NCBI RefSeq assembly: GCF_000377765.1
Contig: NZ_KB898665.1
Location: 62,001 to 126,000 of the forward strand
From: Gracilibacillus lacisalsi DSM 19029
Lineage (GTDB): Bacteria > Bacillota > Bacilli > Bacillales > Amphibacillaceae
Reading direction: 5' to 3'
Length of the DNA stretch: 64,000 nt
The position numbers and the translations under genes were made by a program. Shown here one piece after another: positions 22,167 through 43,452 of this stretch. The stretch's first letter is position 1, and every line of letters begins with the position of its first letter. The notes under the pieces were generated by a model. It saw nothing but the letters and a program-made list of their open reading frames with translations. It was not told the origin of the DNA and made no database searches.

Positions 22167-22631
22167 TTAGTTTAATAGTTTCCAAACCGATTGATATACA
22201 TTTTTAAGTGGTATGTTGTGCAGCTCCGCAATCTTTTTACAATCCTCATATTCAGGAGAAGCTTTGACAACTTTACCTTCCTGTAATCCTTCTTTCACAG
22301 TGACAGGTCCCCACTCTGTTTCGATTATTCTTATGCTCCGTTCCATCCGATAAACGGTCAACGGATAATAGCGAAATCCTAAGGTGGTCGTTTCAGACAA
22401 AAGGATATCCTTCATAGCTGAAAGCAAAGCTTCACTGCATAAAAGTTGTAATTGAACGGCTGGACGATTCTTTTTCATATAAATCGGTGTGTAATACACA
22501 TCGTTTGCCCCTGCATCGAACAACTTGTCCATCACATAGCCAAGCCATTCACCCGGCGTATCATCCAAATTCACTTCTATCTTCATCATATTTTGATCCG
22601 TATGTTCGTAATCTGGCGGGTGTTTGCTCAT
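22167..22631 (-). CDS. larC2: LarC C-terminal half (nickel-pincer cofactor maturation)
   Basis: A 154-aa protein matching only the C-terminal, CTP-using metal-insertion half of LarC, the enzyme that puts nickel into the lactate-racemase pincer cofactor. Family blocks are IEVNLDDTPGEWLGYVMDKLF, the TPIYMKKNRPAVQL stretch and the TLGFRYYPL...R segment. In lactobacilli LarC is made from larC1 and larC2 by ribosomal frameshifting. Here the two halves are free-standing genes about 20 kb apart (partner at 42676-43452). ATG 22631 follows GAGGTGAAGG. LarB, LarE and LarA are not in the window. Confidence 0.85.
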   Translation of the reverse strand: MSKHPPDYEHTDQNMMKIEVNLDDTPGEWLGYVMDKLFDAGANDVYYTPIYMKKNRPAVQLQLLCSEALLSAMKDILLSETTTLGFRYYPLTVYRMERSIRIIETEWGPVTVKEGLQEGKVVKASPEYEDCKKIAELHNIPLKNVYQSVWKLLN

Positions 22632-22739
22632 TACCTTCACCTCAGAATTTTTCTTTTACAGTAACCACTACAGTGAAGAAATCTTAGTATAGTTTACTGT
22701 TTTTAACTCTTTTTAGCAGAAGTCTAGATATCCCACTCA

Positions 22740-25565: not shown

Positions 25566-26348
25566 TTATCTTGCTAACCAGCCGCCGTCTACTGCTAAGA
25601 TATGGCCGTTCATGTAGTCTGATGCTTTGCTTGCTAGATATACTATTGTTCCCATCAAATCACTCGGATCTGCCCAATAACCAGCTGGAATTCTCGATAA
25701 GATTTCTGCGTTGCGCTTTTCATCGGAACGGATTGGCGCAGTATTCTTCGTTGCAAAATAACCTGGTGCAATGGCATTTACTTGTACCCCATGTTCCGCC
25801 AACTCATTCGCAAAAGATTTGGTTAACCCAGCCACAGCATGCTTACTAGCGGTATATGGCGGAATAAATTTTCCACCTTGGAAGGAAAGCATGGATGCAA
25901 TATTAATAATCTTTCCAGATCCTTTGTCGACCATCACTTTTGCTGCGGCCTGACTTAAGAAGTAAACAGCATCAAGATTTAATGCGATAACGTCATCCCA
26001 ATCCTGATCTTTAAATTCAAGAAGGGGATTCCGGCGAATGGTACCAGCATTATTGACGAGTATATCGACTGTACCAAAAGCATCAACACAAGCTGGAACA
26101 ACCTTTTGTAATTGTTCACGGTCCGATAGATCAGCTTGGAAGAATTCAGCATTTCCTTCCATATTATTCAGAAATCCTTTTGTTTCATCCCAATTGGTAC
26201 CATGTGTTACGACAAATACATCGGCACCAGCCTTAGCCAACGCAACGGTATATGCCTGGCCAAGACCAGTGTTCCCACCGGTAATAAGCGCAGTTTTACC
26301 TTTCAATGAGAAATAATCTAGTGAAAAATCTTGTAAACCTTCACCCAT
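25566..26348 (-). CDS. kduD: 2-dehydro-3-deoxy-D-gluconate 5-dehydrogenase
   Basis: A 260-aa short-chain dehydrogenase that reduces the diketo product of KduI to 2-keto-3-deoxygluconate with NAD(P)H. The nucleotide motif is GGNTGLGQA (about residue 22), NNAG follows, and catalytic Ser is in NIASMLSFQGG with YTASK. Length fits KduD. ATG 26348 follows AGGAGG, 11 bp after kduI. Last gene of the pectin operon. Confidence 0.93.
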   Translation of the reverse strand: MGEGLQDFSLDYFSLKGKTALITGGNTGLGQAYTVALAKAGADVFVVTHGTNWDETKGFLNNMEGNAEFFQADLSDREQLQKVVPACVDAFGTVDILVNNAGTIRRNPLLEFKDQDWDDVIALNLDAVYFLSQAAAKVMVDKGSGKIINIASMLSFQGGKFIPPYTASKHAVAGLTKSFANELAEHGVQVNAIAPGYFATKNTAPIRSDEKRNAEILSRIPAGYWADPSDLMGTIVYLASKASDYMNGHILAVDGGWLAR

Positions 26349-26359
26349 GACGCTTCCTC

Positions 26360-27190
26360 CTAGCGTAATTGATCCATGCTGATATGATCCATATCACTAT
26401 ACGTAATGTTCTCGCCGCACATCCCCCAAATAAATGTATAATTACTTGTAGCCGTTCCAGAGTGAATCGACCAACTTGGAGAAATCACAGCTTGTTCATT
26501 CTTCAATACTAAATGTCTTGTTTCACTTGGCTCACCCATAAAATGAAAGACACGAGTATCTTCTTCCATATCAAAATACAGATACACTTCACTACGGCGG
26601 TCATGAGTATGTGCTGGCATTGTATTCCATACGCTACCAGGTTGCAACATCGTTAAGCCCATCTGTAGCTGGCAGCTTTCACATACATTAGGGTGAATAT
26701 ATTGATGGATTTTTCTTTCATTTAAAGTCTCTAATTGACCAAGCTCCAATGGCTTAATGTCTTTCATATCAATTTTTACTGTTGGATAAGTATTGTGTGC
26801 TGGTGATGATAACATATAAAATTTCGCTGGGGTGACTGGATCATTGGAACCGAACCATACTTCCTTCGTCCCCCGGCTTACATACAATCCATCATGGCGC
26901 TTCATGTCATAACGCTCACCGTCTAATATGACATAGCCGTCATTACCGATATTGATTATTCCTAGTTCTCGGCGTTCTAGGAAATAGCTAACACCCAATT
27001 GCTTATCAAGATTAATCGTCAACTCGTCAGATGCAGGTGTTACACCACCAAAGATCATTCGGTCCACATGTGTATAGGTTAAGTGAACTTTTCCTGGTTC
27101 GAATAATTTCTCGACTAGAAACTTTTCACGTAACTCGTCGGTATTGTATCTTCTAATTTCATTCGGGTGGTTGGCATAACGTACTTCCAT
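26360..27190 (-). CDS. kduI: 5-dehydro-4-deoxy-D-glucuronate isomerase
   Basis: A 276-aa zinc cupin that isomerises 5-keto-4-deoxyuronate to 2,5-diketo-3-deoxygluconate. The metal ligands appear as PAHTHDRRSEVYLYF (two His and Glu, near residues 195-205) and the later His in SIHSGTA. Length matches KduI. ATG 27190 follows a GGAGGGG site. Sits between the acetylesterase and kduD. Confidence 0.94.
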   Translation of the reverse strand: MEVRYANHPNEIRRYNTDELREKFLVEKLFEPGKVHLTYTHVDRMIFGGVTPASDELTINLDKQLGVSYFLERRELGIINIGNDGYVILDGERYDMKRHDGLYVSRGTKEVWFGSNDPVTPAKFYMLSSPAHNTYPTVKIDMKDIKPLELGQLETLNERKIHQYIHPNVCESCQLQMGLTMLQPGSVWNTMPAHTHDRRSEVYLYFDMEEDTRVFHFMGEPSETRHLVLKNEQAVISPSWSIHSGTATSNYTFIWGMCGENITYSDMDHISMDQLR

Positions 27191-27255: not shown

Positions 27256-27954
27256 TTACTCAGCAAATAGACTAAATTCTGATTTTACATAAGAAGCTAA
27301 AGGATGATTCAAGCTAATTAATGCTTTCACAAATAAAAGACAATGCTGGTGGGCACCTCTTTCATGCAAATGAGTATCATCTTTTAGACCATCAGGATAA
27401 GTCGAATATTCACCAGGTTCTAGCCTCATAAACCATTTTTTTGTTTGATCTTTTCCCAGTTCTTGCAACGCTTCTCTAGTTAGTGCGAGCATATCGACAC
27501 AGACAACATCCTCTTTTTCTGCAAGTTCTCTTACAGCTTGCGGATAATCACCATGCGTTTCTTTTAATCCACCATAATCATCAAAATGCCTACGAGCTAT
27601 CGATGTTAAAAGAATTGGGGTAACACCGAAAGCTTGTGAACGCTGAATAAAAAATCGTAAATTATCCTGGTAACTTGTAAAAGGTTTCGTTGCGCGTTCC
27701 TCATCTGGTTTTTGATCATTATGACCAAACTGGATGAGAACATAATCCCCTTCTTGAAACTCCTTTTCGATCGCATCCCATCGCCCTTCTGCTATAAATG
27801 ATTTGGTGCTACGACCCGATGCCGCATGATTACGAACAACGAGGTCTTTAGAGAAATATTGATCGAGAATTTGTCCCCAACCCATTTGTGGATATCTTGA
27901 CTCATCAAAAGTAGCCATTGTAGAGTCTCCTGCTAAAAATAAATGTGTTGGCAT
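27256..27954 (-). CDS. rhgT: Rhamnogalacturonan acetylesterase (SGNH hydrolase)
   Basis: A 232-aa SGNH esterase predicted to remove acetyl groups from rhamnogalacturonan fragments. The GDSTM block holds the catalytic Ser near residue 10, QFGHNDQKP carries the Asn block, and DDTHLHERG carries Asp and His of the triad. Length equals B. subtilis YesT/RhgT. No signal peptide, so it acts on imported oligosaccharides. Confidence 0.9.
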   Translation of the reverse strand: MPTHLFLAGDSTMATFDESRYPQMGWGQILDQYFSKDLVVRNHAASGRSTKSFIAEGRWDAIEKEFQEGDYVLIQFGHNDQKPDEERATKPFTSYQDNLRFFIQRSQAFGVTPILLTSIARRHFDDYGGLKETHGDYPQAVRELAEKEDVVCVDMLALTREALQELGKDQTKKWFMRLEPGEYSTYPDGLKDDTHLHERGAHQHCLLFVKALISLNHPLASYVKSEFSLFAE

Positions 27955-27991: not shown

Positions 27992-29560
27992 TTACTCCTC
28001 TAACCCATGATATTCAAACCAATCAAAATCTGCATAATTTGTTGATTCCTTTCCATTTCCAGAACAATACATACCGATATATGCCCCAACAAATCCACCA
28101 GCAATATCTGTACTTAGAATTCTGCCATCGGCATTTTCCGCTAAAATCTGCCAATCAAACGGCTTAGTCGTATAGAAGAATGAGTAGTCTTGACCATAAG
28201 CTTCTACTTTTAAATACACCGTATGCTTATCAACCTCTTCTTTTGCAATGACTTTATCTTCACCTGCTTCTCTTCTTACTAAGCGTACAAAGGTTTGACT
28301 TCCTTCTAACAAAACTTCTACACGGAATTGATAATGATGATTTTGTAGTAGAACCAGCCCTGCCGTTTCATGTTCCGTTTTCGCTTCAAATTCGATAACT
28401 GTCTGAGCGAAGAAGTTAAGGTGCTGCTGCCTTCTGCCGACAAAAGCAGGATTTTCTTCTTCCATGATTGTTTCCGGTTTTGCTTTAAGCCGTAAGAAGC
28501 CAGGACGTTCGCTTAAAGACCAGAAATCCCCTCGTGGTGTTCGGATAAAGTTCCATCTATCATCTAATTGCTCAGATTCAAACGAATCGGCATGAGGCAG
28601 TGCAGGCCATTTATGTTCTGGTAAATTGGGAAATTTCATTTCTTGTTCGATGATGCCTTTTCCAGGATTAACAATCGGCCAGCCATCTTCCCATATAAAT
28701 GGCACAAGGAATGTTTCACGACCAAGATTACGGTAATAGCCGCCGTATGGACGAGAAGCCAGTGCAACCATCCACCAATCACCATTTTGTGTTTCTACGA
28801 TATCAGCATGGCCAACATTTACGATCGGATGATTGTTACCTAAATGGCGATGGGTTAGGATCGGATTGGTTTCCGTCATTTCGTATGGCCCTGTTACCTC
28901 TTTACTTCTAGCAATCGTAACGGCATGTGTATGGCCGGTTCCACCTTCTGCTATGATTAAGTAATACCAGCCATCGATTTTATATAAATGTGGAGCTTCT
29001 TGTGCATGGGCATTCTTTAACGCACCATCCCACAAGCTGTACTTCGGACCAACTAATTGTTTCTTCTCTGAATCTAATTCTTGTAGCCAAATTTCATTAT
29101 GCTTTTTATACTGTTGACCTGACGGCGGCTTCCGATTTCCTGTGTAATAGACTTTGCCATCATCATCAAATAGTAGGGATGGATCAATTCCTGGTGCATC
29201 TTCTAACCAATTGGGATCAGACCATGGCCCTCTTGGATCTGTAGCGGTTACATAAAAATTACGCCTTGCCCCAGTCTTACTTACCACAAAGGTTGTAATC
29301 ATATAAAAGACTCCATCATGATAACGAATGGTTGGTGCATAAATACCTCTTGAATTGGGTGTTTGATCTAAGTTAAGTTGTTCCGGTCGTTCGAGTACAT
29401 GACCGATTTGCTTCCAATTTACAAGGTCTTTACTATGAAAAATCGGAACACCGGGAAAATATTCAAAACTTGAAGTGACAAGGTAATAATCTTCCCCTAC
29501 CCGACAGACAGAAGGGTCCGGATAAAACCCTGGAATAATTGGATTTTTAAATATTTTCAC
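27992..29560 (-). CDS. GH43 beta-xylosidase/alpha-L-arabinofuranosidase-type hydrolase
   Basis: A 522-aa intracellular glycosidase. The N-terminal five-bladed propeller has the GH43 acids Asp15 (FYPDPS), Asp126 (GIDPSLLFDDDG) and Glu188 (QEAPHLYKIDG). A beta-sandwich C-terminal domain from about residue 325 is as in XynB-type enzymes. A GTG start at 29560 overlaps the GH28 stop region, with an AGGTG site. In this operon it probably removes arabinose or a similar side-chain sugar from pectin fragments. Xylosidase activity cannot be excluded. Confidence 0.85.
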   Translation of the reverse strand: MKIFKNPIIPGFYPDPSVCRVGEDYYLVTSSFEYFPGVPIFHSKDLVNWKQIGHVLERPEQLNLDQTPNSRGIYAPTIRYHDGVFYMITTFVVSKTGARRNFYVTATDPRGPWSDPNWLEDAPGIDPSLLFDDDGKVYYTGNRKPPSGQQYKKHNEIWLQELDSEKKQLVGPKYSLWDGALKNAHAQEAPHLYKIDGWYYLIIAEGGTGHTHAVTIARSKEVTGPYEMTETNPILTHRHLGNNHPIVNVGHADIVETQNGDWWMVALASRPYGGYYRNLGRETFLVPFIWEDGWPIVNPGKGIIEQEMKFPNLPEHKWPALPHADSFESEQLDDRWNFIRTPRGDFWSLSERPGFLRLKAKPETIMEEENPAFVGRRQQHLNFFAQTVIEFEAKTEHETAGLVLLQNHHYQFRVEVLLEGSQTFVRLVRREAGEDKVIAKEEVDKHTVYLKVEAYGQDYSFFYTTKPFDWQILAENADGRILSTDIAGGFVGAYIGMYCSGNGKESTNYADFDWFEYHGLEE

Positions 29561-31044
29561 TATCTTTCACCTACTTTTTGTAGATTACTTTCATTTCCAA
29601 CAATGTGCAGTTCTTCTGTATCTTTATATACAAGAACCGATTCATGTTCACTTTGGTTTGTGGAGGTTAATTCCTCAATCTTAATCCGCTTCGCATTATA
29701 TAATTGAAGTGCTGGTCCTTTTCTAGCCTTCACTTCTACATGGTGGAGACGAAGATCCTCGACATACTTTGTATAAATACCTTCACCAGCCATTTCAATC
29801 ACCTCACGGACCATATCAGGCTCACCACCTGGAACAGCTTCGTCCTGAGTCATCTCTAATGTGACATGTTCTAAGCTTACTTTTCTAACTGGCATTTCTG
29901 GTAATCCGTAGATAAATCCTGCTGCGGCACGACAGTTTCTTGCCGTAATATGACTGATGTTAATCTGTTCCACTACAGGTGTTTTTTCTGTCACAGCTAT
30001 CGGTGCAGCATCGAGTAACTCTGGGTTGCTTTTACTTACACCATGACGATAAAACGAATTGATGGCTATCGGGCATAGAACGTTGTCCATCATAATATTT
30101 TGCACCAAAATATTGCGGATATAACTTCCTCGCTCGCGGTTCGTTTTAATCCTGATCCCACGATCGGTACCATCAAATATACAATTGGAAACAGTAATAT
30201 TTTCAATTCCACCAGAATTTTCACTACCAAATACAACACCGCCATGTCCATGATGCATCGTACAGTTAGCTACTGTCACATTTTTAGTAGGCACACCATA
30301 ATTTCGACCATCTTGATTAATCCCTGACTTTAAAACGACACAATCATCTCCGACATCAAAATGACAATCTGTTACTCTGACGTTCTGACAGGAGTCAATA
30401 TCCAAACCATCGCCATTCGGTGTATCAGAAGGATTCTGAAATGTCACATTTTGAATCGAGACATTATGACAAAACACCAAGTGTGTATTCCAGAATGGCG
30501 AATTCTTCACAGTAACTCCCGAAATGGTAATATGCTCTGCTTCAAAAAATTGAATAAGTGGTGGTCGTAAAAATTGTGATGACCATTCTACTAAATTAGT
30601 ATCTGCCGGTTCCGTGAAATCTTTGTTTGCTTCGGCTATTTCTGCTGTTATAGGAGATTGATATGTTTCTCCGTTTCTTAATTGCTTATTTACCTGCCAC
30701 CATGCACTCCCATTTCCATCGATTATTCCGTCACCTTTAATGGCTACATTTGTTACATTGGAAGCAAAAATTAGTGGCATAAAGCCCTGACATACATAGC
30801 CGGACCAACGGGTTTTTACGACTGGATAACGTTCAAAATCATCGGTGAAACTTAGAACTGTACCAGCATCAAGGTACAATGTCATGTTACTTTTTAATTC
30901 AATTGGACCTGTATGATAGGTTCCTGATGGAAGATATACAGTACCACCACCAGCGTTTTCACAATCATCAACGGCTTGTTGAATTGCTCTCGTACTATCG
31001 GTATCTTCTTGTACTTGATAATCTTTGACATTGAATAAACTCAT
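29560..31044 (-). CDS. GH28 polygalacturonase-family hydrolase, intracellular
   Basis: A 494-aa right-handed beta-helix enzyme without a signal peptide. The GH28 active site is visible: Asp212 in PNGDGLDID, Asp233-Asp234 in VGDDCVVLKSG, His267 in HGHGGVVFGSE and the RIKT motif near 298. The family includes exo-polygalacturonases and rhamnogalacturonan hydrolases. Being cytoplasmic suggests exo-action on imported oligogalacturonides or rhamnogalacturonan fragments. Coupled to the GH43 gene downstream. Confidence 0.9.
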   Translation of the reverse strand: MSLFNVKDYQVQEDTDSTRAIQQAVDDCENAGGGTVYLPSGTYHTGPIELKSNMTLYLDAGTVLSFTDDFERYPVVKTRWSGYVCQGFMPLIFASNVTNVAIKGDGIIDGNGSAWWQVNKQLRNGETYQSPITAEIAEANKDFTEPADTNLVEWSSQFLRPPLIQFFEAEHITISGVTVKNSPFWNTHLVFCHNVSIQNVTFQNPSDTPNGDGLDIDSCQNVRVTDCHFDVGDDCVVLKSGINQDGRNYGVPTKNVTVANCTMHHGHGGVVFGSENSGGIENITVSNCIFDGTDRGIRIKTNRERGSYIRNILVQNIMMDNVLCPIAINSFYRHGVSKSNPELLDAAPIAVTEKTPVVEQINISHITARNCRAAAGFIYGLPEMPVRKVSLEHVTLEMTQDEAVPGGEPDMVREVIEMAGEGIYTKYVEDLRLHHVEVKARKGPALQLYNAKRIKIEELTSTNQSEHESVLVYKDTEELHIVGNESNLQKVGER

Positions 31045-31056
31045 TGTCTCACACCT

Positions 31057-31371
31057 CTAATCTAGTAAATCTTCTCTTAACGGAGTAAATACATCTAATA
31101 GTTTACTTTTCGTTAATGCTTTAACACCGTGTACTGCATCGGAAGGTATCCTTAACGACTCTCCTTGTTCGACGATGACTTCTTTTCCATCGACATGAAA
31201 AGCTAGTTTACCAGCTAAACAATACGTTAATTGTTCATGTGGATGACTATGTGCTGAACCTTCTGCTCCCTCTTCAAATGAAACTTCCATCATCATTAAC
31301 TGATCACCTGGTTCATGTATTTTTCTTGTTACTCCTGGCTCTGCTTGTTCCCACTTGTTAACAGCCATCAT
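31057..31371 (-). CDS. kdgF: KdgF cupin: unsaturated uronate ring-opening enzyme
   Basis: A 104-aa single-domain cupin. The metal motif AHSHPHEQLTYC and later DAVHGV match KdgF, which converts 4,5-unsaturated galacturonate into 5-keto-4-deoxyuronate for KduI. The ends RKIHEPGDQLMMMEVSFEEGA and FTPLREDLL also match KdgF. ATG 31371 overlaps the MFS stop by four bases after a GGAGGAATC site. Its presence with kduI/kduD implies unsaturated monouronates are a real intermediate. Confidence 0.9.
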   Translation of the reverse strand: MMAVNKWEQAEPGVTRKIHEPGDQLMMMEVSFEEGAEGSAHSHPHEQLTYCLAGKLAFHVDGKEVIVEQGESLRIPSDAVHGVKALTKSKLLDVFTPLREDLLD

Positions 31372-32579
31372 GATTCCTCCTTTAATTTTGTTATAATTGG
31401 TAATATGAACTGAATTGCCATCGCTAACATAATGACATAGGCAACCGTGTTCGTATCAATTTCATTAGAAAATAACATAAACACCACAATTCCTAGCCCT
31501 CGACCAATATTAATAATGGTTTCTCTCAAAACGACTGACTCAACACGAAACTCTGATCCTAATGGAATCCGATCAATCCATTGAAAATAGTAGGCTGCAT
31601 AAGCATTTGCTTGTAGCGGTTTAAACATATTTTGCGTTACCATAAACAAGATGACACTCCACATCGCAATTTCCCAAGTTAAAAAGGAGCCAGATACAAA
31701 GAAGCCAATAGCAGCTACCCATAGGTATTTTTTCGTTTGTTCAATATTGGCAAATCGGGAAATGACATAACTTGCTAGTATCGATACAGCGAGAAAACCT
31801 GCATTTAAGTATCCAACAACACCTTCATCTTCAAAAATGCTATAGATTAAAATCGGCGGGATATACATCAAAATTCCCTGGGGAAAACCAATAATAAACC
31901 ACCCTGCTAAAGCATTTCGGAATGCTTTTCTCCGCTCGATAATCTGACCTAAATATTTCATATAATAATTGCGATGACGAATGGATTCTTTCTTGATTCG
32001 AAAACTGCCAACCGTCGCAGCTAAAAACATTAGAAAAGCGATTGAGAATACAATGAGATATCCCGACAACCCTGTAAATGAGCCAATAATAAAACCTGCT
32101 AAAGCTGGTGCTGTAAGGTTAGCAGACCCCATCACGATCTGATTCCAACCTAAATAGCGATGTCGATTTTGATCTGATGATACTTCATGGACTATGGTAA
32201 AATAAGCTACCCAATAAAGGCCCTGTGCTATTCCACGCAAAAGCGCAAATAAATAAAAGTAATGAACAATCTCTTCTTGTACAATAACAATCAGTAAATA
32301 AAAAATAGCAGTCATCAATATCCCGTAACGATATATTGTTGTTCTGCCTTTTTTCTTTGATATTTTTCCAATAAAGAAGGTTGTTGCCGCTTGTGATAGA
32401 ATAGCAACTAAATTATATAGACCATTTACCCACAGACTGTTGGTCAGCCTCCATAAATATAAGTTCACAAAGATAATCGATAGTGATCCACCAAATTGAA
32501 AGATCGCATGATTAATTAAAATATTGATAGCATGTGATGATAAACGCTTTTCCTTGTTAAGTTTCATCGATCGAATCAA
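31368..32579 (-). CDS. MFS transporter in the pectin operon
   Basis: A 403-aa major facilitator with about 11-12 helices; KISKKKGRTTIYRYG is the loop between helices 2 and 3. The start is uncertain: TTG 32579 has weak upstream pairing (AAAGAAG) and ATG 32567 has none. It lies between the helical protein and kdgF and overlaps kdgF, so it is part of the pathway. It may carry galacturonate, unsaturated uronates or an acidic disaccharide (inference). Not a known ExuT or KdgT relative by eye. Confidence 0.8.
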   Translation of the reverse strand: MIRSMKLNKEKRLSSHAINILINHAIFQFGGSLSIIFVNLYLWRLTNSLWVNGLYNLVAILSQAATTFFIGKISKKKGRTTIYRYGILMTAIFYLLIVIVQEEIVHYFYLFALLRGIAQGLYWVAYFTIVHEVSSDQNRHRYLGWNQIVMGSANLTAPALAGFIIGSFTGLSGYLIVFSIAFLMFLAATVGSFRIKKESIRHRNYYMKYLGQIIERRKAFRNALAGWFIIGFPQGILMYIPPILIYSIFEDEGVVGYLNAGFLAVSILASYVISRFANIEQTKKYLWVAAIGFFVSGSFLTWEIAMWSVILFMVTQNMFKPLQANAYAAYYFQWIDRIPLGSEFRVESVVLRETIINIGRGLGIVVFMLFSNEIDTNTVAYVIMLAMAIQFILPIITKLKEES

Positions 32580-32582
32580 GCT

Positions 32583-33710
32583 TTACACTTCTTTCTGTTC
32601 GCATATTTTGCCTTCTGCCTCACCTTCCCAGAAATTAGTGGGAATAGGTTTCGGTTTTATTTGCCAAAGGTGGTGTAGCTGTTTTCGAATAAGTGTTGCT
32701 TGTGTCGTTGCATTCATATCGCCTTCTTTTAATCCAAGTCCTAGTTCCACTGCCTCAGGCATATTCGGATAAGATTCTCCTTGCTTAACCTGAGCGACAT
32801 TTGGTGCCTTCGGTGAAGTAGTTAACTCTCGTGAAAAGGCACCATCTTCCTGTTTTAATCTCTTCATATTGTTAATGGTTATTTCTGATATTTCTCTCAG
32901 TTCTGTCTCTAAAAAATTCGGCTCGATATAACTTAACAGGTCAATCGGGTTGCGGATATAGCACATATCTACCGCTTCTTCTGTTCTTAAGCACTTTAAG
33001 ATAGTCTGGTAAATCCGGTCTTGATTCGGCATCGAGATTTGATATCTCCGGTAAAAGGTATGTAATTTAAACGTACCAGATATTTGTACATATAAAGATC
33101 CCTCACCCCATAAACCTGTTTCCGGATTTTGCTTTTCTGCTAGATACTCAGTGAAAGCATCAACATATTTTCGTTGTGTTACTTCATCCATTTGTGCAAA
33201 ATATACGGTCGAAGAAGCAAGCAAGTCACAGCCCCTCCAGCTATTACGTAAGTCAATGCTGTCCCATTTTTCCCGGTAAGAAGATAAGGATTGGGTGTAA
33301 TCAGGAGCCACCTGATTTTCTACAGGCAATGGATAAAATGGTGATGCCCCCAATCGCTTGAGGCTATTCCATGAATAATAGAGTGCTCGGTGCACCATCA
33401 CTTCATCTTTTTTCATCTTGGGATCATGATCATAAAAATAACCTGTGGCAGGATCTTGCCTCATTTGATAAAAAGCAATCATTTTTTCTTTCATCGTTTG
33501 CGGCATATTATGTAAGAGCAGATGTCTGCGTAAAATATTGATTGCTTGGGAAGTAGACTCGATGTCCGGTGTAAACCGATCATCGAGCACAGAACTTCTT
33601 GCATAATAAAATCCGCCTGTAAGTGGATCAAATTGTTCTAATAACCAGGAGAATACACCATCAAACAAATCATCCAGCCTATCGCTTTCTGTCTCACGCC
33701 AATTCTTCAT
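32583..33710 (-). CDS. Uncharacterised alpha/alpha-toroid-like protein in the pectin operon
   Basis: A 375-aa soluble protein not assigned to a family here. It has no signal peptide. Repeated turns read FDPLTGGFYY (about 27), QDPATGYFYD (about 87), QNPETGLWG (about 196) and KQEDGAFS (about 305). They are spaced among amphipathic helices, a pattern of alpha-helical toroids (terpene-cyclase, GH88/GH105 or lyase-like folds). The length is close to GH105 unsaturated uronyl hydrolases, but their sequence motifs are not seen. Operon position, four bases before the MFS gene, points to a catabolic enzyme for pectin fragments. Confidence 0.6.
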   Translation of the reverse strand: MKNWRETESDRLDDLFDGVFSWLLEQFDPLTGGFYYARSSVLDDRFTPDIESTSQAINILRRHLLLHNMPQTMKEKMIAFYQMRQDPATGYFYDHDPKMKKDEVMVHRALYYSWNSLKRLGASPFYPLPVENQVAPDYTQSLSSYREKWDSIDLRNSWRGCDLLASSTVYFAQMDEVTQRKYVDAFTEYLAEKQNPETGLWGEGSLYVQISGTFKLHTFYRRYQISMPNQDRIYQTILKCLRTEEAVDMCYIRNPIDLLSYIEPNFLETELREISEITINNMKRLKQEDGAFSRELTTSPKAPNVAQVKQGESYPNMPEAVELGLGLKEGDMNATTQATLIRKQLHHLWQIKPKPIPTNFWEGEAEGKICEQKEV

Positions 33711-33734: not shown

Positions 33735-34613
33735 TTATCCCTTTACAGAACCTAACAGCGCACCTTTAGCAAAGTACTTCTGTAAGAACGGGTATACTAA
33801 TAGAACTGGAACCGTTGCAACGACGATCGTTGCCATTTTCACCGTTACTTCTGGCGGCGGAACATCTGTGTATGCTTCGGCATCATAGTTCATACCACTA
33901 GCTAATACTACAATTTGTCTCAGTAGTACTTGTACCGGCCATTTATCTGCATCTGCTAAATAAAGAATCGCATGCATATAAGTATTCCAGTATGTTACCG
34001 CATAGAATAGGGAAATTGTCGCAATTGCTGGTAACGAAATCGGGATGACGATACGAAACAGAATACTAAAATCATTGGCACCATCAATTTTCGCCGATTC
34101 TTCTAAACCTTGCGGTAAGTTTAGGAAGAAGCTTCGTAAAATGATCATGTTAAAAGCATTAATCGTTACCGGAACAATAAGCGCCCATAAGGAATCTAAT
34201 AAACCAGTTTGTTGAACAACTAAGAATGTCGGGATCATCCCACCATTGAACAGAAGGGTAAATACGATTAAGAAGTTAATTACCCGTCGTCCAACAAGAT
34301 CTCTACGTGATAGACCATATGCTGTTAAAGTGGAGAAGAACATACTCCACAATGTTCCTCCTACCGTTACAATGACAGATACTCCTAAAGCTCTAAAAAT
34401 GGTATCGGTGGAGAAAATATATTTATACGCTTGTAATGAAAACTCAGTTGGAAAAAGTAAAAATTTCGTTCTAGCAATTTCCGCACTTGTGGCAAAGGAA
34501 CTACCGACAACGTGAATAAATGGAAGTACGGTAATTAATGCTAAAAGTGCTAATAAAAAATAATTAAAAAAATCAAAGACCCTGCTACCTGCAGAAATTC
34601 GTTGTTGTGCCAT
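33735..34613 (-). CDS. ytcP: CUT1 sugar ABC permease, YtcP/LplC-like
   Basis: A 292-aa permease with six helices and the coupling loop EESAKIDGANDFSILFRIVIP near residue 185. It closely follows the YtcP/LplC type used for rhamnogalacturonan oligosaccharides. ATG 34613 follows AGGTG. A GTG at 34622 overlaps the site and is less likely. Pairs with the next permease. No ATPase gene is present, so an MsmX-type ATPase elsewhere is expected. Confidence 0.88.
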   Translation of the reverse strand: MAQQRISAGSRVFDFFNYFLLALLALITVLPFIHVVGSSFATSAEIARTKFLLFPTEFSLQAYKYIFSTDTIFRALGVSVIVTVGGTLWSMFFSTLTAYGLSRRDLVGRRVINFLIVFTLLFNGGMIPTFLVVQQTGLLDSLWALIVPVTINAFNMIILRSFFLNLPQGLEESAKIDGANDFSILFRIVIPISLPAIATISLFYAVTYWNTYMHAILYLADADKWPVQVLLRQIVVLASGMNYDAEAYTDVPPPEVTVKMATIVVATVPVLLVYPFLQKYFAKGALLGSVKG

Positions 34614-34642
34614 TTTTTTCACCTCACCTATTGTTGTCTATC

Positions 34643-35605
34643 TTAATAAATACCTTCTTCATTGAATCTTTTCGCTAACCAGTTAGCAAAGACAACCATT
34701 ACAAGTCCTACCGCCCCTTTAAAGAAACCGACTGCGGTACTGTAACTAAATTGTCCTTGTTGCAGACCGGCAACATATACATACGTATCAAAAATTTCAG
34801 CTACATTCCGGTTTGATGAGTTCAGTAATAGATAAACATGTTCGAAACCTAACTCTAAAACATCCCCGATTTTCAAAATGAGCAGGACAATAATTACATT
34901 ACGGATCGCCGGCAACGTAATATGCCACATTTGACGGAAACGGTTGGCACCATCCATTCTGGCAGCTTCATATAATTGCGGATCAACCGCTGTGATCGCT
35001 GCTAAGAAGATAATCGTTCCCCAGCCAGCTTCCCGCCAGATTACTTGTAAAATATACATCGGGCGGAACCAGTCATCATTTAGAAGGAAATTAACCTTTT
35101 GAAAGCCAAGTGTTTCTAAGATAGCGTTTACAATACCGCCATCTAAAGTTAACATTACATAACTAATCGATACGATAACTACCCATGACATAAAGTGCGG
35201 GATATAGATAAGCGTTTGAACACCTCGTTTAAAGAAGCTATGTCTTACTTCATTAAGCATAAGCGAAATAATAATCGGAATCGGAAAATAAATAAATATT
35301 TGTAATCCAAATAAAACGAGTGTATTCTTAAAAATCATCCAAAATTCTGAACTCGTAAATAAGCGATTGAAGTGTTCGAGCCCGACCCATTCACTTCCAA
35401 AAATCCCTAGATATGGCTTATAGTCTTGAAAGGAAATAATTAATCCGTACATCGGTAAATATTTATAAATAAGGAAGTAAATTAAGCCTGGAAGAATCAT
35501 TAAATAGATCATCTTGTTCCGTTTGACTCTTCGCCATGTTTCGGAACGTTTCATTTTTTTAACTTGTTTCGCTTCTTCTTTTGCAGTTAGTGTCGTCGTT
35601 TCCAT
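34643..35605 (-). CDS. yteP: CUT1 sugar ABC permease, YteP/LplB-like
   Basis: A 320-aa permease. A charged N-terminal tail (residues 1-32) is followed by six helices and the coupling loop YEAARMDGANRFRQMWHITLP near residue 215. Length fits YteP (321) and LplB (318). ATG 35605 is preceded by AAAGGA with eight-base spacing. An upstream ATG at 35656 lacks a site. A conserved 32-bp element lies about 70 bp upstream. Confidence 0.88.
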   Translation of the reverse strand: METTTLTAKEEAKQVKKMKRSETWRRVKRNKMIYLMILPGLIYFLIYKYLPMYGLIISFQDYKPYLGIFGSEWVGLEHFNRLFTSSEFWMIFKNTLVLFGLQIFIYFPIPIIISLMLNEVRHSFFKRGVQTLIYIPHFMSWVVIVSISYVMLTLDGGIVNAILETLGFQKVNFLLNDDWFRPMYILQVIWREAGWGTIIFLAAITAVDPQLYEAARMDGANRFRQMWHITLPAIRNVIIVLLILKIGDVLELGFEHVYLLLNSSNRNVAEIFDTYVYVAGLQQGQFSYSTAVGFFKGAVGLVMVVFANWLAKRFNEEGIY

Positions 35606-35676
35606 AAGCAGAATCCTTTCTTTTAAAATTCGATTATGAATAATTGTCTTTAACAAAAGACTACGTTATTGGTTAT

Positions 35677-35852: not shown

Positions 35853-37349
35853 TTACTCAGATGCGTTAAACTCTTCGATAATCGCTTCTCCACCTTGTGA
35901 TTTCCAATCTTCTATTGCATCAGCAAATCCTGCTTCATCAATTTGGCCAATTATATAATTATAGGTTGCGTCCGTAATAATTTCCTGAAGTCTAGCACCA
36001 TCATCAACATATGTCTCTGAATATAGTGGCACCGTAGGGTCTTCAATTAAATATTCTTCATTTTCTTTGGTTAACTCTTCTGCTTTTTCTTTGATATCAT
36101 AGTCAAATTTAGATTCATATCGACCATTTGTTTCTGGCTCGCCTATCCCGATAGACATATATGGTTTCACTTCTCTATCTGTTAATGCTTTATCATCAGA
36201 CGGTAAAGCACGGTCATCTTCTACTTCATAATGTTCTCCTTCAATACCCCAATATGATAGGTTTGCTATTTCAGGTGTCATCATTTGGTCGAAGAAGTCT
36301 AAAATATTCAGTAAATCTTCTTCTGTTTCAACAGCGCTTTTTGGGAACATTACTAAACTTCCATAACCAGGAATCGACCAAACTCCGTATTCCCCATCAG
36401 GCCCTTTGATTTTGTTTTGTACATCAAACTCCACATCTGGGTTAATGGCTACTGCGTCATTGTTAATACTAACTACATCGCCCATGGACCCGACATACAT
36501 ACCAGCTGTACCATTTTTAAAGAACTCTTGCTGATCTGTTTTACTTGTTACCGGAAAATCCTGATTAATATAACCGTTGTCATACATTTCCTTAAAGAAA
36601 TCCATGGTTTGTTTATATTCATCAAACATAAACTCTGGCTGCAGTTGGCCATCTTGTTCGCCCCAGTTATTCGGCGTACCAAACCAGGAAGAAACTGTTT
36701 TAAAGGCACCATAAATCAAATCACTACGGTCTGTTAAACCAAAAGTATCGTCTTCTCCATTTCCATCTGGATCATCTTCTGTAAATGCTCTTGCCATTTC
36801 CATAAATTCATCCGTTGTAGTAGGTTCCTCTAACCCGAGATTATTTGCCCAATCCTTGCGATAGATTAGACCTTGACTTGATAATGGGCGACCTTGGTAT
36901 AACGTATACAATTTTCCATTTATCCGCGTGTTATCTAAGACCGTGTCCTTTAATTTCGACAAGTTTTCAAATTGATCTAAATACTGTCCAACTTCCCAGA
37001 ACTGTTCATCTTCAATTGCATCACGGAATTGAATGAATGATGATTGATTTTTTAAGAAAACTGCTTCAGGTAAGGAGTTAGTAGCAAACGCAGTATTTAA
37101 TCGATCTTCGTAGTTGTTATCTGGTACCCATTGAATTTCAATTTCCTTATTTGTTTCCTCTTCTATTTTCTCTAAGATTTTATCGTTTGGTACTTCTGGT
37201 GTATGCAAGTTAGCCATAATGGCAAATGAGTCACCAGACCCCGAACCACCAGCACCTTCACTTGATGCACTATCACCACTACAACCAACAAAAACTAAAA
37301 GCGATAAAAGTATTATCGTAGTTAGCTTCCATTTTTTCCGATTTAGCAA
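35853..37349 (-). CDS. Oligosaccharide-binding lipoprotein, copy 2 (YtcQ/LplA-like)
   Basis: A 498-aa CUT1 solute-binding lipoprotein, the length of B. subtilis YtcQ. The lipobox is VFVGC near residue 24, followed by a short Gly/Ser linker and the binding domain (FAIMANLHTPEVPNDKI onward). Start TTG 37349 is preferred, five bases after AAGGGTGG and parallel to the TTG of copy 1. A GTG at 37358 overlaps that site. Most of the mature sequence is shared with copy 1, so this is a tandem duplicate. The likely ligand is a rhamnogalacturonan or pectin oligosaccharide. Confidence 0.88.
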   Translation of the reverse strand: MLNRKKWKLTTIILLSLLVFVGCSGDSASSEGAGGSGSGDSFAIMANLHTPEVPNDKILEKIEEETNKEIEIQWVPDNNYEDRLNTAFATNSLPEAVFLKNQSSFIQFRDAIEDEQFWEVGQYLDQFENLSKLKDTVLDNTRINGKLYTLYQGRPLSSQGLIYRKDWANNLGLEEPTTTDEFMEMARAFTEDDPDGNGEDDTFGLTDRSDLIYGAFKTVSSWFGTPNNWGEQDGQLQPEFMFDEYKQTMDFFKEMYDNGYINQDFPVTSKTDQQEFFKNGTAGMYVGSMGDVVSINNDAVAINPDVEFDVQNKIKGPDGEYGVWSIPGYGSLVMFPKSAVETEEDLLNILDFFDQMMTPEIANLSYWGIEGEHYEVEDDRALPSDDKALTDREVKPYMSIGIGEPETNGRYESKFDYDIKEKAEELTKENEEYLIEDPTVPLYSETYVDDGARLQEIITDATYNYIIGQIDEAGFADAIEDWKSQGGEAIIEEFNASE

Positions 37350-37466
37350 GTAAACCACCCTTTACTATGAGTCTTGTTGTACAACAATGTCTCGAACAGT
37401 GCTCTTATCTTTTTTTGTTTGACCAAGCATTGTTGCCTTGAAAGAAATCTTACTTCAATGATTCGA

Positions 37467-37643: not shown

Positions 37644-39188
37644 TTACTCTGATGCGTTAAATTCTTCGATAATCGCATCTCCACCTTGCGATTTCCAGTT
37701 TTCCACCGCATCATCAAAACCTGCTTCATCAATTTGACCAATGATATAGTTATAGGTTGCATCTGTAATAATCTCTTGAAGTCTAGCACCGTCATCAACG
37801 TATGTCTCAGAATAAAGAGGTACCGTAGGATTTTCAATTAAATAGTTTTCATTGTCTTTAAACAATTCTTCCGATTTAGCTTTTACTTCATAATCGAAAT
37901 AACCTTCATAACGGCCGTTTGTTTCCGGCTCACCAATTTCAATAGCTTGGTAAGGTTTTACTTCTCGATCAAACAAGGATTGATCATCTGTTGGTAATGC
38001 ACGATCCTCTACTACTTCATAATGCTCACCTTCGATACCCCAGTAAGCATAATTCATTACTTCTGGTGTCATTAATTGATCAAAGAATCCTAAAATTTTA
38101 AGTAGATCTTCTTCTGTTTCAACAGAACTTTTCGGAAACATTACTAAACTACCATAACCAGGAATTGCCCATACACCAAATTCTCCGTCTGGACCTTCAA
38201 TATGGTTATGCACATCAAATTCTACATCTGGATTAATTGCTTCTGCATCATTATAAAGACTGCCAACATCACCCATAGAACCTACATACATACCTGCAGT
38301 ACCATTCTTAAAGAATTCTTGTTGATCTGGTTTACTAGTTACAGGAAAGTCTTGATTAATGTATCCGTTTTCATGCATTTCCTTAAAGAAATCCATTGTT
38401 TGTTTATATTCGTCAAACATAAACTCCGGTAATAGCTGACCATCTTGTTCGCCCCATTCATTCGGAGTTCCGAACCAAGACGATACTGTTTTGAATGCGC
38501 CATAAACTAAGTCACTACGGTCTGTTACACCAAATGTATCATCTTCCCCATTGCCATCTGGATCATCTTCGGTAAAGGCTCTAGCCATTTCCATAAACTC
38601 GTCTGTTGTAGTCGGCGCTTCTAATCCAAGATTATCTGCCCAATCTTTACGATATATCAAACCTTGTCTTGATAGTGGACGACCTTGATACAATGTGTAT
38701 AAATTCCCATTAACTCTCGTATTATCCAGTACATTGTCTTTTAAGTTAGACAAATTCTCAAATTGATCTAAATACTGTCCCACTTCCCAGAATTGTTCAT
38801 CTTCCATCGCATCACGGAATTGAATGAATGTTGTCTGGTTTTTTAAGAATACTGCCTCAGGTAAAGAATTAGTCGCAAAAGCTGTGTTTAATCGATCCTC
38901 ATAGTTATTATCCGGTACCCATTGAATTTCAATATCCGTATTAGTTGCTTCCTCAATTTGTTCTAATACTTTTTCATTAGGTACTTCTGGTGTGTGTAAG
39001 TTTGCCATAATCGTGAAGGCATACGGCTCATCAGAATCTGCCCCTTCTTCTTCATTTGTTTCTTCAGAAGAGTCATCATCTCCACCGCTATTGTCTCCAC
39101 CTTCTGTTGTACTATCACTACTACATGCTGCTAATAAAACAAATAATAGTAATAACATGATGCCCATAAGTTTTTTCCAATTACTCAA
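37644..39188 (-). CDS. Oligosaccharide-binding lipoprotein, copy 1 (YtcQ/LplA-like)
   Basis: A 514-aa solute-binding lipoprotein. The lipobox is LLAAC, then an acidic linker of about 30 residues, longer than in copy 2, then the same binding domain (FTIMANLHTPEVPNEKV onward). TTG 39188 is chosen as start because GGAGGGTGG lies nine bases upstream. An earlier in-frame ATG at 39224 has no site. First gene of the pectin operon, divergent from the YesL/YesS pair, hence probably the best expressed. Confidence 0.88.
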   Translation of the reverse strand: MSNWKKLMGIMLLLLFVLLAACSSDSTTEGGDNSGGDDDSSEETNEEEGADSDEPYAFTIMANLHTPEVPNEKVLEQIEEATNTDIEIQWVPDNNYEDRLNTAFATNSLPEAVFLKNQTTFIQFRDAMEDEQFWEVGQYLDQFENLSNLKDNVLDNTRVNGNLYTLYQGRPLSRQGLIYRKDWADNLGLEAPTTTDEFMEMARAFTEDDPDGNGEDDTFGVTDRSDLVYGAFKTVSSWFGTPNEWGEQDGQLLPEFMFDEYKQTMDFFKEMHENGYINQDFPVTSKPDQQEFFKNGTAGMYVGSMGDVGSLYNDAEAINPDVEFDVHNHIEGPDGEFGVWAIPGYGSLVMFPKSSVETEEDLLKILGFFDQLMTPEVMNYAYWGIEGEHYEVVEDRALPTDDQSLFDREVKPYQAIEIGEPETNGRYEGYFDYEVKAKSEELFKDNENYLIENPTVPLYSETYVDDGARLQEIITDATYNYIIGQIDEAGFDDAVENWKSQGGDAIIEEFNASE

Positions 39189-39294
39189 ATTAACCACCCT
39201 CCAGAATCTAATTTTGTACAGCAATGTTTGCCGTGTACAATCTAATAGTAAGAAACAAATAAGTATTTGTATATAATCACTTCTTCACAGCTGT

Positions 39295-42675: not shown

Positions 42676-43452
42676 TCACTGTTCACTTTCACCGATGATG
42701 ACTCTTAATACATTTGGGTGATTTTCAAATGTTTTCGTACCAGCACCATAGCCAATTGTATCTACTGTGATGTTTGGCATCGCCGAGAAATCCGTTGCTA
42801 ATGTCTTAATGATGGCAGCTCCAGTAGGGGTTGTTAATTCCCCCTTTACAGCGCTTTCTTTTAATGGAATACCCTTTAATACTTCTAATGTAGCTGGGGC
42901 AGGCACCGGATAAACTCCATGATCAATATGAATGTGACCAGATCCAACTGGAATTGGAGAAGATATAATTCGATCAATCTCTAATTTATCTATTAATATG
43001 GCAGTACCAACAATATCAATAATTGAATCTATGGCACCAACTTCATGAAAATGAACATTTTCCAGATTCATTCCATGTATTTTTGCTTCCGCTTCACCGA
43101 TCACACGGAACATTTCTAAAGACATTTTTTTTACCGATGCGTTTAGTTCACTATTCTCAATAAGATGGACAATATCTTTATAATGTCGATGATGATGAGA
43201 ATGACCGTGATGATGACTATCATCATGGCGATGGTCGTGATGATGCTCCTCTTCATATATCACATCAAACTTATTACTATGTATACCGTTTTTCACAGTT
43301 TTACTAAGCTGTAATTGATACTCTTTTTCTAAATGTAAGGCTTTAAGCTGTTTCTCCAACCACTCTAAAGATATACCTGTATCCAATAAAGAGGCAATGG
43401 TCATATCCCCACTTATCCCGGAAAAACAGTCAAAATACAACGTTTTTGTCAT
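42676..43452 (-). CDS. larC1: LarC N-terminal half (nickel-pincer cofactor maturation)
   Basis: A 258-aa protein matching the N-terminal half of LarC. It starts with LYFDCFSGISGDM, then has a nickel-binding His-rich loop (about residues 70-92, over ten His). FHEVGAIDSIIDIVG and PVPAPATLEVLKG follow, and it ends NHPNVLRVIIGE. A stop codon follows directly and no C-terminal half lies downstream. The matching half is at 22167-22631. ATG 43452 follows GGAGG with nine-base spacing. It is a lone gene between yesS and a repeat-rich gap. Confidence 0.88.
   Translation of the reverse strand: MTKTLYFDCFSGISGDMTIASLLDTGISLEWLEKQLKALHLEKEYQLQLSKTVKNGIHSNKFDVIYEEEHHHDHRHDDSHHHGHSHHHRHYKDIVHLIENSELNASVKKMSLEMFRVIGEAEAKIHGMNLENVHFHEVGAIDSIIDIVGTAILIDKLEIDRIISSPIPVGSGHIHIDHGVYPVPAPATLEVLKGIPLKESAVKGELTTPTGAAIIKTLATDFSAMPNITVDTIGYGAGTKTFENHPNVLRVIIGESEQ

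Follow-up and report, generated by a model that had tools for sequence, protein, structure and literature searches.

An alpha/alpha-toroid protein that matches no Pfam or NCBIfam model, encoded in a pectin operon of Gracilibacillus lacisalsi, is a candidate enzyme for pectic oligouronides

To our knowledge, pectin catabolism in Bacillota is regarded as largely solved. Oligogalacturonate lyase (PL22) converts short oligogalacturonides to an unsaturated or keto monomer. Some alpha/alpha-toroid enzymes can be recognized by catalytic signatures: class II terpene cyclases contain a DxDD acid motif, and the N-acylglucosamine and cellobiose 2-epimerases use catalytic histidines. PL10 is a toroid pectate lyase, according to an excerpt of PMC10992409. 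Dehydratases of the BcGDH type prepare saturated ends for GH88 and co-occur with GH88/GH105, according to excerpts of PMC12269599, which also list ten inactive BcGDH alanine variants, including those at E74, N176, N177, W178, Y229, and R285. In the literature that we searched, judged by titles and the starts of abstracts, no paper describes a protein like the one analyzed here, which we call protein X.

The gene for X lies within a window of 64,000 nucleotides, the whole stretch of DNA analyzed, from the G. lacisalsi DSM 19029 genome. As claimed in the original prediction, it encodes 375 aa and is located inside a pectin operon (Table 1). It begins with an ATG. The operon, a same-strand run, contains genes for solute-binding proteins, two ABC permeases (presumably lplB and lplC types), X, an MFS transporter, a KdgF-type cupin, GH28, GH43, a GDSL-type esterase, KduI, and a probable KduD. 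A gap of 24 bases separates the upstream permease from X, and 3 bases separate X from the listed start of the MFS gene (32579), which confirms the predicted place of X before the MFS gene and upstream of kdgF. The cupin downstream of X matches three pectin degradation/KdgF structures, 5fpz and 5fpx (about 4e-16) and 5fq0 (2e-14), as well as 7zyb (1.1e-21), whose name is simply Cupin. The two solute-binding genes, at 35853-37358 and 37644-39224 (-), are similar to each other and lie in tandem upstream of the permeases. Separate same-strand genes for the N- and C-terminal halves of what we take to be a LarC-like protein, at 42676-43452 (-) and 22167-22640 (-), flank the pectin cluster and lie ~20 kb apart; both halves are matched, fully or partly, at the two ends of two other loci (L037 and L002).

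Table 1. Positions of protein X, its candidate residues, and its neighbors in the window
Feature	Position	Strand	Basis
Protein X, unclassified alpha/alpha-toroid protein, 375 aa	32583..33710	-	ORF, AlphaFold2 models, 32 homologues
Asp331 codon (EGDMNATTQ motif, start of helix 332-348), invariant 32/32	32718..32720	-	conservation, arithmetic from ORF
Asp248 codon (DMCYIRNP motif, start of helix 249-262), invariant 32/32	32967..32969	-	conservation, arithmetic from ORF
Asp162 codon (SWRGCD motif, helix 157-166), invariant 32/32	33225..33227	-	conservation, arithmetic from ORF
Asp49 codon (PDIES motif; Glu51 two codons on), start of helix 50-62, candidate active site	33564..33566	-	conservation, arithmetic from ORF
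ABC permease, presumably lplC-type, directly upstream of X	33735..34622	-	ORF; same cluster directly upstream in 19/25 loci
ABC permease, presumably lplB-type	34643..35656	-	ORF, neighborhood reading
Extracellular solute-binding protein (SBP_bac_1)	35853..37358	-	profile match
MFS transporter, directly downstream of X	31368..32579	-	profile match; 18/25 loci
KdgF-type cupin	31057..31371	-	5fpz E 4.1e-16
GH28, polygalacturonase-like	29560..31044	-	profile match; PglA 305 bits, below its cut-off 600
GH43	27992..29560	-	profile match
GDSL-type esterase	27256..27954	-	profile match; partial match to pectin acetylesterase PaeY, 101 bits, below its cut-off 1000
KduI	26360..27190	-	profile match
Short-chain dehydrogenase, probable KduD	25566..26348	-	profile match; KduD from context

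The highest mean Kyte-Doolittle value of X over 19 residues is 0.45; thus, the protein has no membrane or signal stretch, in agreement with the cytoplasmic location that had been proposed for it. Comparison with two relatives gives dN/dS values of 0.21 (375 codons) and 0.08 (first 355 codons). Profile and sequence searches with the window protein yielded no Pfam, NCBIfam, or PDB sequence match, and no match was present in the plasmid collection. The BFVD viral library gave none at E <= 0.001; its best match, a giant-virus protein named glucan 1,4-alpha-glucosidase, has an E of 3.7e-3.

Homologues of X were found in 32 distinct genomes: 17 of its own family (its own genome included), 12 elsewhere in the class, and three in family f144. 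This total merges overlapping genome samples, in which X was present in 17/159 genomes of the family, 13/299 of the order, 3/398 of the phylum, 3/29 of the class of G815, and, with strong scores, 7/398 of the class. Each of the 32 genomes has one match, identity to the window protein ranges from 87% down to 43%, and 14 of 17 genomes of the genus carry the gene. An 18th family row (G005; 38% identity over 53 residues, with four stops) and 13 class-level rows with E values of 0.046-0.41 were dropped as chance matches. The copy in G636 (L054:587-1489) is without the first part of the protein; the G846 copy (L149), which is 91% identical to it, is longer (362 aa).

The association of X with pectin loci, which the original prediction drew from one genome, extends across genera. 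Neighborhoods were read for 25 of the 32 genomes. In 19 of these 25 loci the permease cluster immediately precedes X, and in 18 the MFS gene immediately follows it; 16 have KdgF, and 12 have GH105 within the stretch read. In all, 22 loci have at least one gene of the GH28/GDSL, KdgF, GH105, KduI, pectinesterase-type, or PL10 kinds, and the other three (L054, L148, and L149) have no pectin gene within the stretch read. A gene for a PL10 pectate lyase lies 200 bases ahead of X in G815, a distant genome, and two Bacillales copies (L050 and L051) belong to a short set consisting of X, MFS, KdgF, and a TIM-barrel protein. A TIM-barrel protein (PF01261) occurs in eight of the 25 loci (L040, L046, L047, L050, L051, and L054 among them), and six of the eight are without KduI in the stretch read; it may provide another isomerase at the keto-deoxyuronate step.

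An alpha/alpha toroid had been guessed from repeated DP.TG.FYY-like turns between helices. Four turns of a D..TG.(F/W)-like kind are indeed present, DPLTGGFYY (G at 32), DPATGYFYD (90), NPETGLWGE (199), and QEDGAFSRE (290), and every one precedes a conserved helix in the AlphaFold2 model. Modeling with 17 sequences gave a pLDDT of 88 and a pTM of 0.88; with 32 sequences these values rose to 93 and 0.91, and this confident model is an alpha/alpha toroid, in support of the guess. Its six hairpins were counted from the helix list rather than from coordinates. Foldseek with this model returned several toroid enzymes at a probability of 1.00. The best matches are mixed: MstE, a type II terpene cyclase (E 3.8e-4), GH76 (4.0e-4), and squalene-hopene cyclase (8.3e-4). 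The glucuronate dehydratase BcGDH (9nwf_B; E 9.1e-4, probability 1.00, TM 0.42, rmsd 9.5 A) is at rank 5, with the GH154 structure 8oi4 next (E 1.7e-3; TM 0.40-0.42 for the pair), and the GH105 4ce7_B is at rank 22 (E 0.015, probability 1.00). Since the whole chains superpose badly (TM 0.4-0.5, rmsd about 8-9.5 A), no catalytic residue of X was assigned by superposition. In VIA, protein prenyltransferase chains rank at the top (geranylgeranyltransferase complex chain B: Z 17.7, rmsd 3.6 A, 262 residues), followed by cyclases and 2-epimerases near Z 15, scores to be read with the tool's own note that helical models with no clear counterpart often score as high as Z 14. The best 50 VIA entries include no GH105, PL10, or GH154, an absence that rules out none of these kinships. 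The fold alone gives X no function.

Profile comparisons place X beside the known toroid families rather than within one. The window protein has no match to PF07470 (Glyco_hydro_88) up to E 1, and none of 29 members has one up to E 10, a range in which the filters of HMMER remove most matches with an E over about 0.1. Weak matches were obtained with SQHop_cyclase_C (7/29 members, best E 0.0019; none for the window protein itself) and Prenyltrans (4/29, best E 1.1e-4). By hhalign, X and GH105 score 41.3, above all 100 column shuffles (maximum 27.9) and the reversed alignment (22.0), and X and squalene cyclase (SHC) score 29.7, above 40/40 shuffles (maximum 22.6). These scores and that with the epimerase family (AGE), all above their shuffles, may reflect a remote common origin of the toroids. 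Control pairs of known families score 17.1 (GH105-SHC), 19.1 (AGE-SHC), 30.1 (PL10-AGE), 32.2 (GH105-AGE), 36.2 (GH105-PL10), and 59.4 (PL10-SHC), with sets that are shallow for SHC (5 sequences) and AGE (9). Because the known families score 17-59 among themselves, X is no nearer to any of them than they are to each other, and kinship with GH105 beyond the shared fold class is weakened accordingly. A search for GH154 sequences among the weak GH88 matches found none; eight frames were judged by eye to be GH88, GH105, or other toroids. X looks like a new toroid family, set apart by the Pfam, NCBIfam, and PDB searches and the shallow profile comparisons, and is not filed as GH105, PL10, GH154, or a cyclase. 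The comparison of its catalytic aspartates with those of GH105/GH88 covered one hairpin (QD..TGLW, 32 columns), which is all that aligns and the whole of the hhalign signal with GH105.

The same comparisons bear on two alternatives. X could, like cellobiose 2-epimerase, epimerize or isomerize a sugar, here an intermediate of the pathway. Its VIA scores with glucose and cellobiose 2-epimerases (Z 15.0-15.2) and an hhalign score of 27.1 with AGE, above 40/40 shuffles (maximum 22.0), speak for such an activity. The GlcNAc_2-epim profile gives a weak match to one of 29 members (E 0.051). However, X has no invariant histidine, the best His column reaching 75%, and we regard an epimerase as highly improbable. 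It is very unlikely that X is a calcium-dependent cytoplasmic lyase of short oligogalacturonides, a distant PL10-like toroid. Such a lyase would fit the toroid fold of PL10, the PL10 gene that precedes X at L053, and the acid-rich conserved positions, but the hhalign score of 18.9 is reached or exceeded by 18/100 shuffles (mean 16.5) and the PL10 profile PF09492 (Pec_lyase) matches none of the 29 members. A kinship with PL10 that had been suggested by eye from GGW...DNDATT motifs was rejected, its hhalign score being at shuffle level.

In the original prediction, X was to stand in for the GH105 or GH88 enzyme that normally frees unsaturated galacturonate for KdgF. The premise is correct locally: the window genome (4.4 Mb, in a 44-contig assembly) has no PF07470 match. 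Across the family it does not work as an explanation, and the substitution is not supported: a strong match is present in 24 of the 29 X genomes tested (9/14 in the genus and 15/15 outside it; of the 32, G846, G865, and G1000 were left out). A GH105/GH88 gene in the same regulon, although absent from the window genome, is a feature of most relatives. The nine strong matches in the genus score 398-424 bits and lie 3.2-4.7 kb from X on one strand; outside the genus, GH105 is within 10.3 kb of X on one strand in 11/15 genomes, and in 20 of the 24 genomes with both, the two share a strand and lie no more than 11 kb apart. Weak rows were not counted: that of G030 scores 35.5 bits (cut-off 26.6) and was rejected as GH105 because its 362-residue frame (L146) looks unlike GH105 by eye, and those of G022, G023, and G034 are below the cut-off of 26.6. 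Four of the five genomes without a strong match (G000, G022, G030, G034, and G035) have PL22; the exception is G022, a 95% complete genome that carries X but gives no PL22 match and no strong GH105 match. In the window genome the PL22 match reaches 122.7 bits when its pieces are joined, against a cut-off of 30, so PL22 could supply unsaturated monomer for KdgF there. Within the genus, a strong GH105 or PL22 match is found in 13/14 genomes with X and 0/3 without it. In our reading, X supplements GH105 or PL22 rather than substituting for either. That X is the missing unsaturated galacturonyl hydrolase of the window genome would agree with the lack of a PF07470 match there, with a position two genes from KdgF, with the same general fold class, with the hhalign score above its shuffles and reversed alignment, and with the gene content of G022. 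We consider it quite unlikely, given the many genomes with both genes, the presence of PL22 in most of those without a strong GH105, and an hhalign signal of a single hairpin within the range of different toroid families.

The conserved residues suggest where an active site might be. D49, E51, R108, D162, K215, D248, R253, E329, and D331 are identical in every member, among 32 homologues, that covers them. The helices of X alternate in conservation, one set of six having entropies of 0.52-1.08 bits and the other 1.22-2.59. Charged positions conserved at >=90% number 22, two of them near-empty C-terminal columns; 11 of the 22 fall at helix starts of the conserved set (84/375 positions; hypergeometric p 0.003) and none in an equal zone of the less conserved set (83 positions). 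The inner and outer labels were taken from helix order, not coordinates, and with the conservation already known, so the p value comes from an unblinded comparison. Judged from their places at the helix starts, the conserved charged residues probably share one mouth of the toroid, and such a mouth would suit a sugar acid. Other positions vary: the three distant members have substitutions at Asp102 and Arg159, and five members have one at Glu103. Residues from about 305 to 319 (VAQVK...YPNMP) are missing from three distant members (L053, L054, and L149), and this segment is therefore not needed by all of the family.

The strongest rival reading is that X is a uronate dehydratase like the GH154-type BcGDH. 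Such an enzyme would dehydrate the saturated non-reducing galacturonate left after a GH105 cut, and the new 4,5-unsaturated end would let GH105 cut again. This would explain why X usually occurs alongside GH105/GH88 (24/29 tested genomes), as the dehydratases do in the excerpts of PMC12269599, but it would not account for the five genomes in which X persists with no strong GH105 match. BcGDH and 8oi4 follow one another in the Foldseek ranking, and E51, N156, S157, W158, Y207, and R253 of X lie roughly at the spacing of the BcGDH residues named in those excerpts. That correspondence was drawn by eye rather than by superposition, however, and the structural match is distant (TM only 0.42, rmsd 9.5 A). 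N156 differs in three distant members and Y207 in one, and Y289 and Y354 of BcGDH, as given in the excerpts, have no assigned partner in X. The absence of GH154 from the best 50 VIA entries, a further point on this side, excludes nothing. On balance we consider a dehydratase unlikely.

Our preferred reading, to which we assign a probability of about 50%, is that X is an accessory cytoplasmic toroid enzyme that acts on imported pectic oligouronides, probably as a hydrolase at the non-reducing uronate. Catalysis, the end of the substrate, and the type of bond are what we infer. The neighboring ABC importer would bring in pectic oligouronides, on which X would then act. Its acids (Asp49, Glu51, Asp162, Asp248, Glu329, and Asp331), found at or close to where every second helix begins, would line one mouth of the toroid, with the bases Arg108, Lys215, and Arg253 at the same mouth, and the 294-330 loop may serve as a lid. 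An acid pair would hydrolyze the non-reducing terminal uronate as the basic residues hold its carboxylate, and the resulting monomers or shortened chains would be supplied to KdgF, KduI, KduD, and GH28. A hydrolase is favored because the invariant acids outnumber the other charged residues of the conserved site and the bases could hold a carboxylate. Against any carbohydrate enzyme is the lack of a family match to one in Pfam, NCBIfam, or PDB; the weak Pfam matches to SQHop_cyclase_C and Prenyltrans and the prenyltransferases at the top of the VIA ranking also count against it. Since the operon already has GH28 and relatives have GH105, the pathway does not force a step for X. The idea of a new uronide-processing enzyme is plausible, though not as a replacement for GH105/GH88. 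A broader proposal, rather unlikely in our estimate, is that X founds a new carbohydrate-active family with a reaction that would be new to pectin catabolism: it would convert saturated to unsaturated galacturonate ends in the cytoplasm, so that oligogalacturonides pass wholly through KdgF and KduI and bypass the galacturonate isomerase route. X would then be for pectin what the dehydratases of ulvan and chondroitin are for those polymers. Whichever its activity, X is a conserved gene product beside an oligosaccharide importer that matches no Pfam or NCBIfam model. With its 32 members, a good model, residues proposed for the active site, and genomes that differ in having GH105, the family offers biochemists a small direct test, and once defined it would allow pectin degraders to be annotated with a name for the protein.

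Compared with the known systems, X shares with GH105/GH88 the toroid fold class, a similar size, the pectin context, and the QD..TGLW hairpin, but differs in having no PF07470 match and in coexisting with GH105 in most tested genomes. It resembles BcGDH (9nwf) and 8oi4 in being a toroid whose family accompanies GH105/GH88; unlike them, it gives no PDB profile match, and the catalytic tyrosine pair of BcGDH was not located in it. Type II terpene cyclases and prenyltransferase beta chains give the best structural scores and weak, repeat-level Pfam matches to X, whereas X has no DxDD motif (0/32 sequences) and has conserved charged positions and a pectin context. The cellobiose and glucose 2-epimerases align at a VIA Z of about 15 over about 300 residues, but X is without their histidines at any invariant position. 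PL10 pectate lyase is, like X, a toroid tied to pectin degradation, with a gene adjacent to X at L053; in contrast to X, the two PL10 pectate lyases that the window genome also has are encoded within long frames (1752 and 1862 codons), and the two families align at shuffle level.
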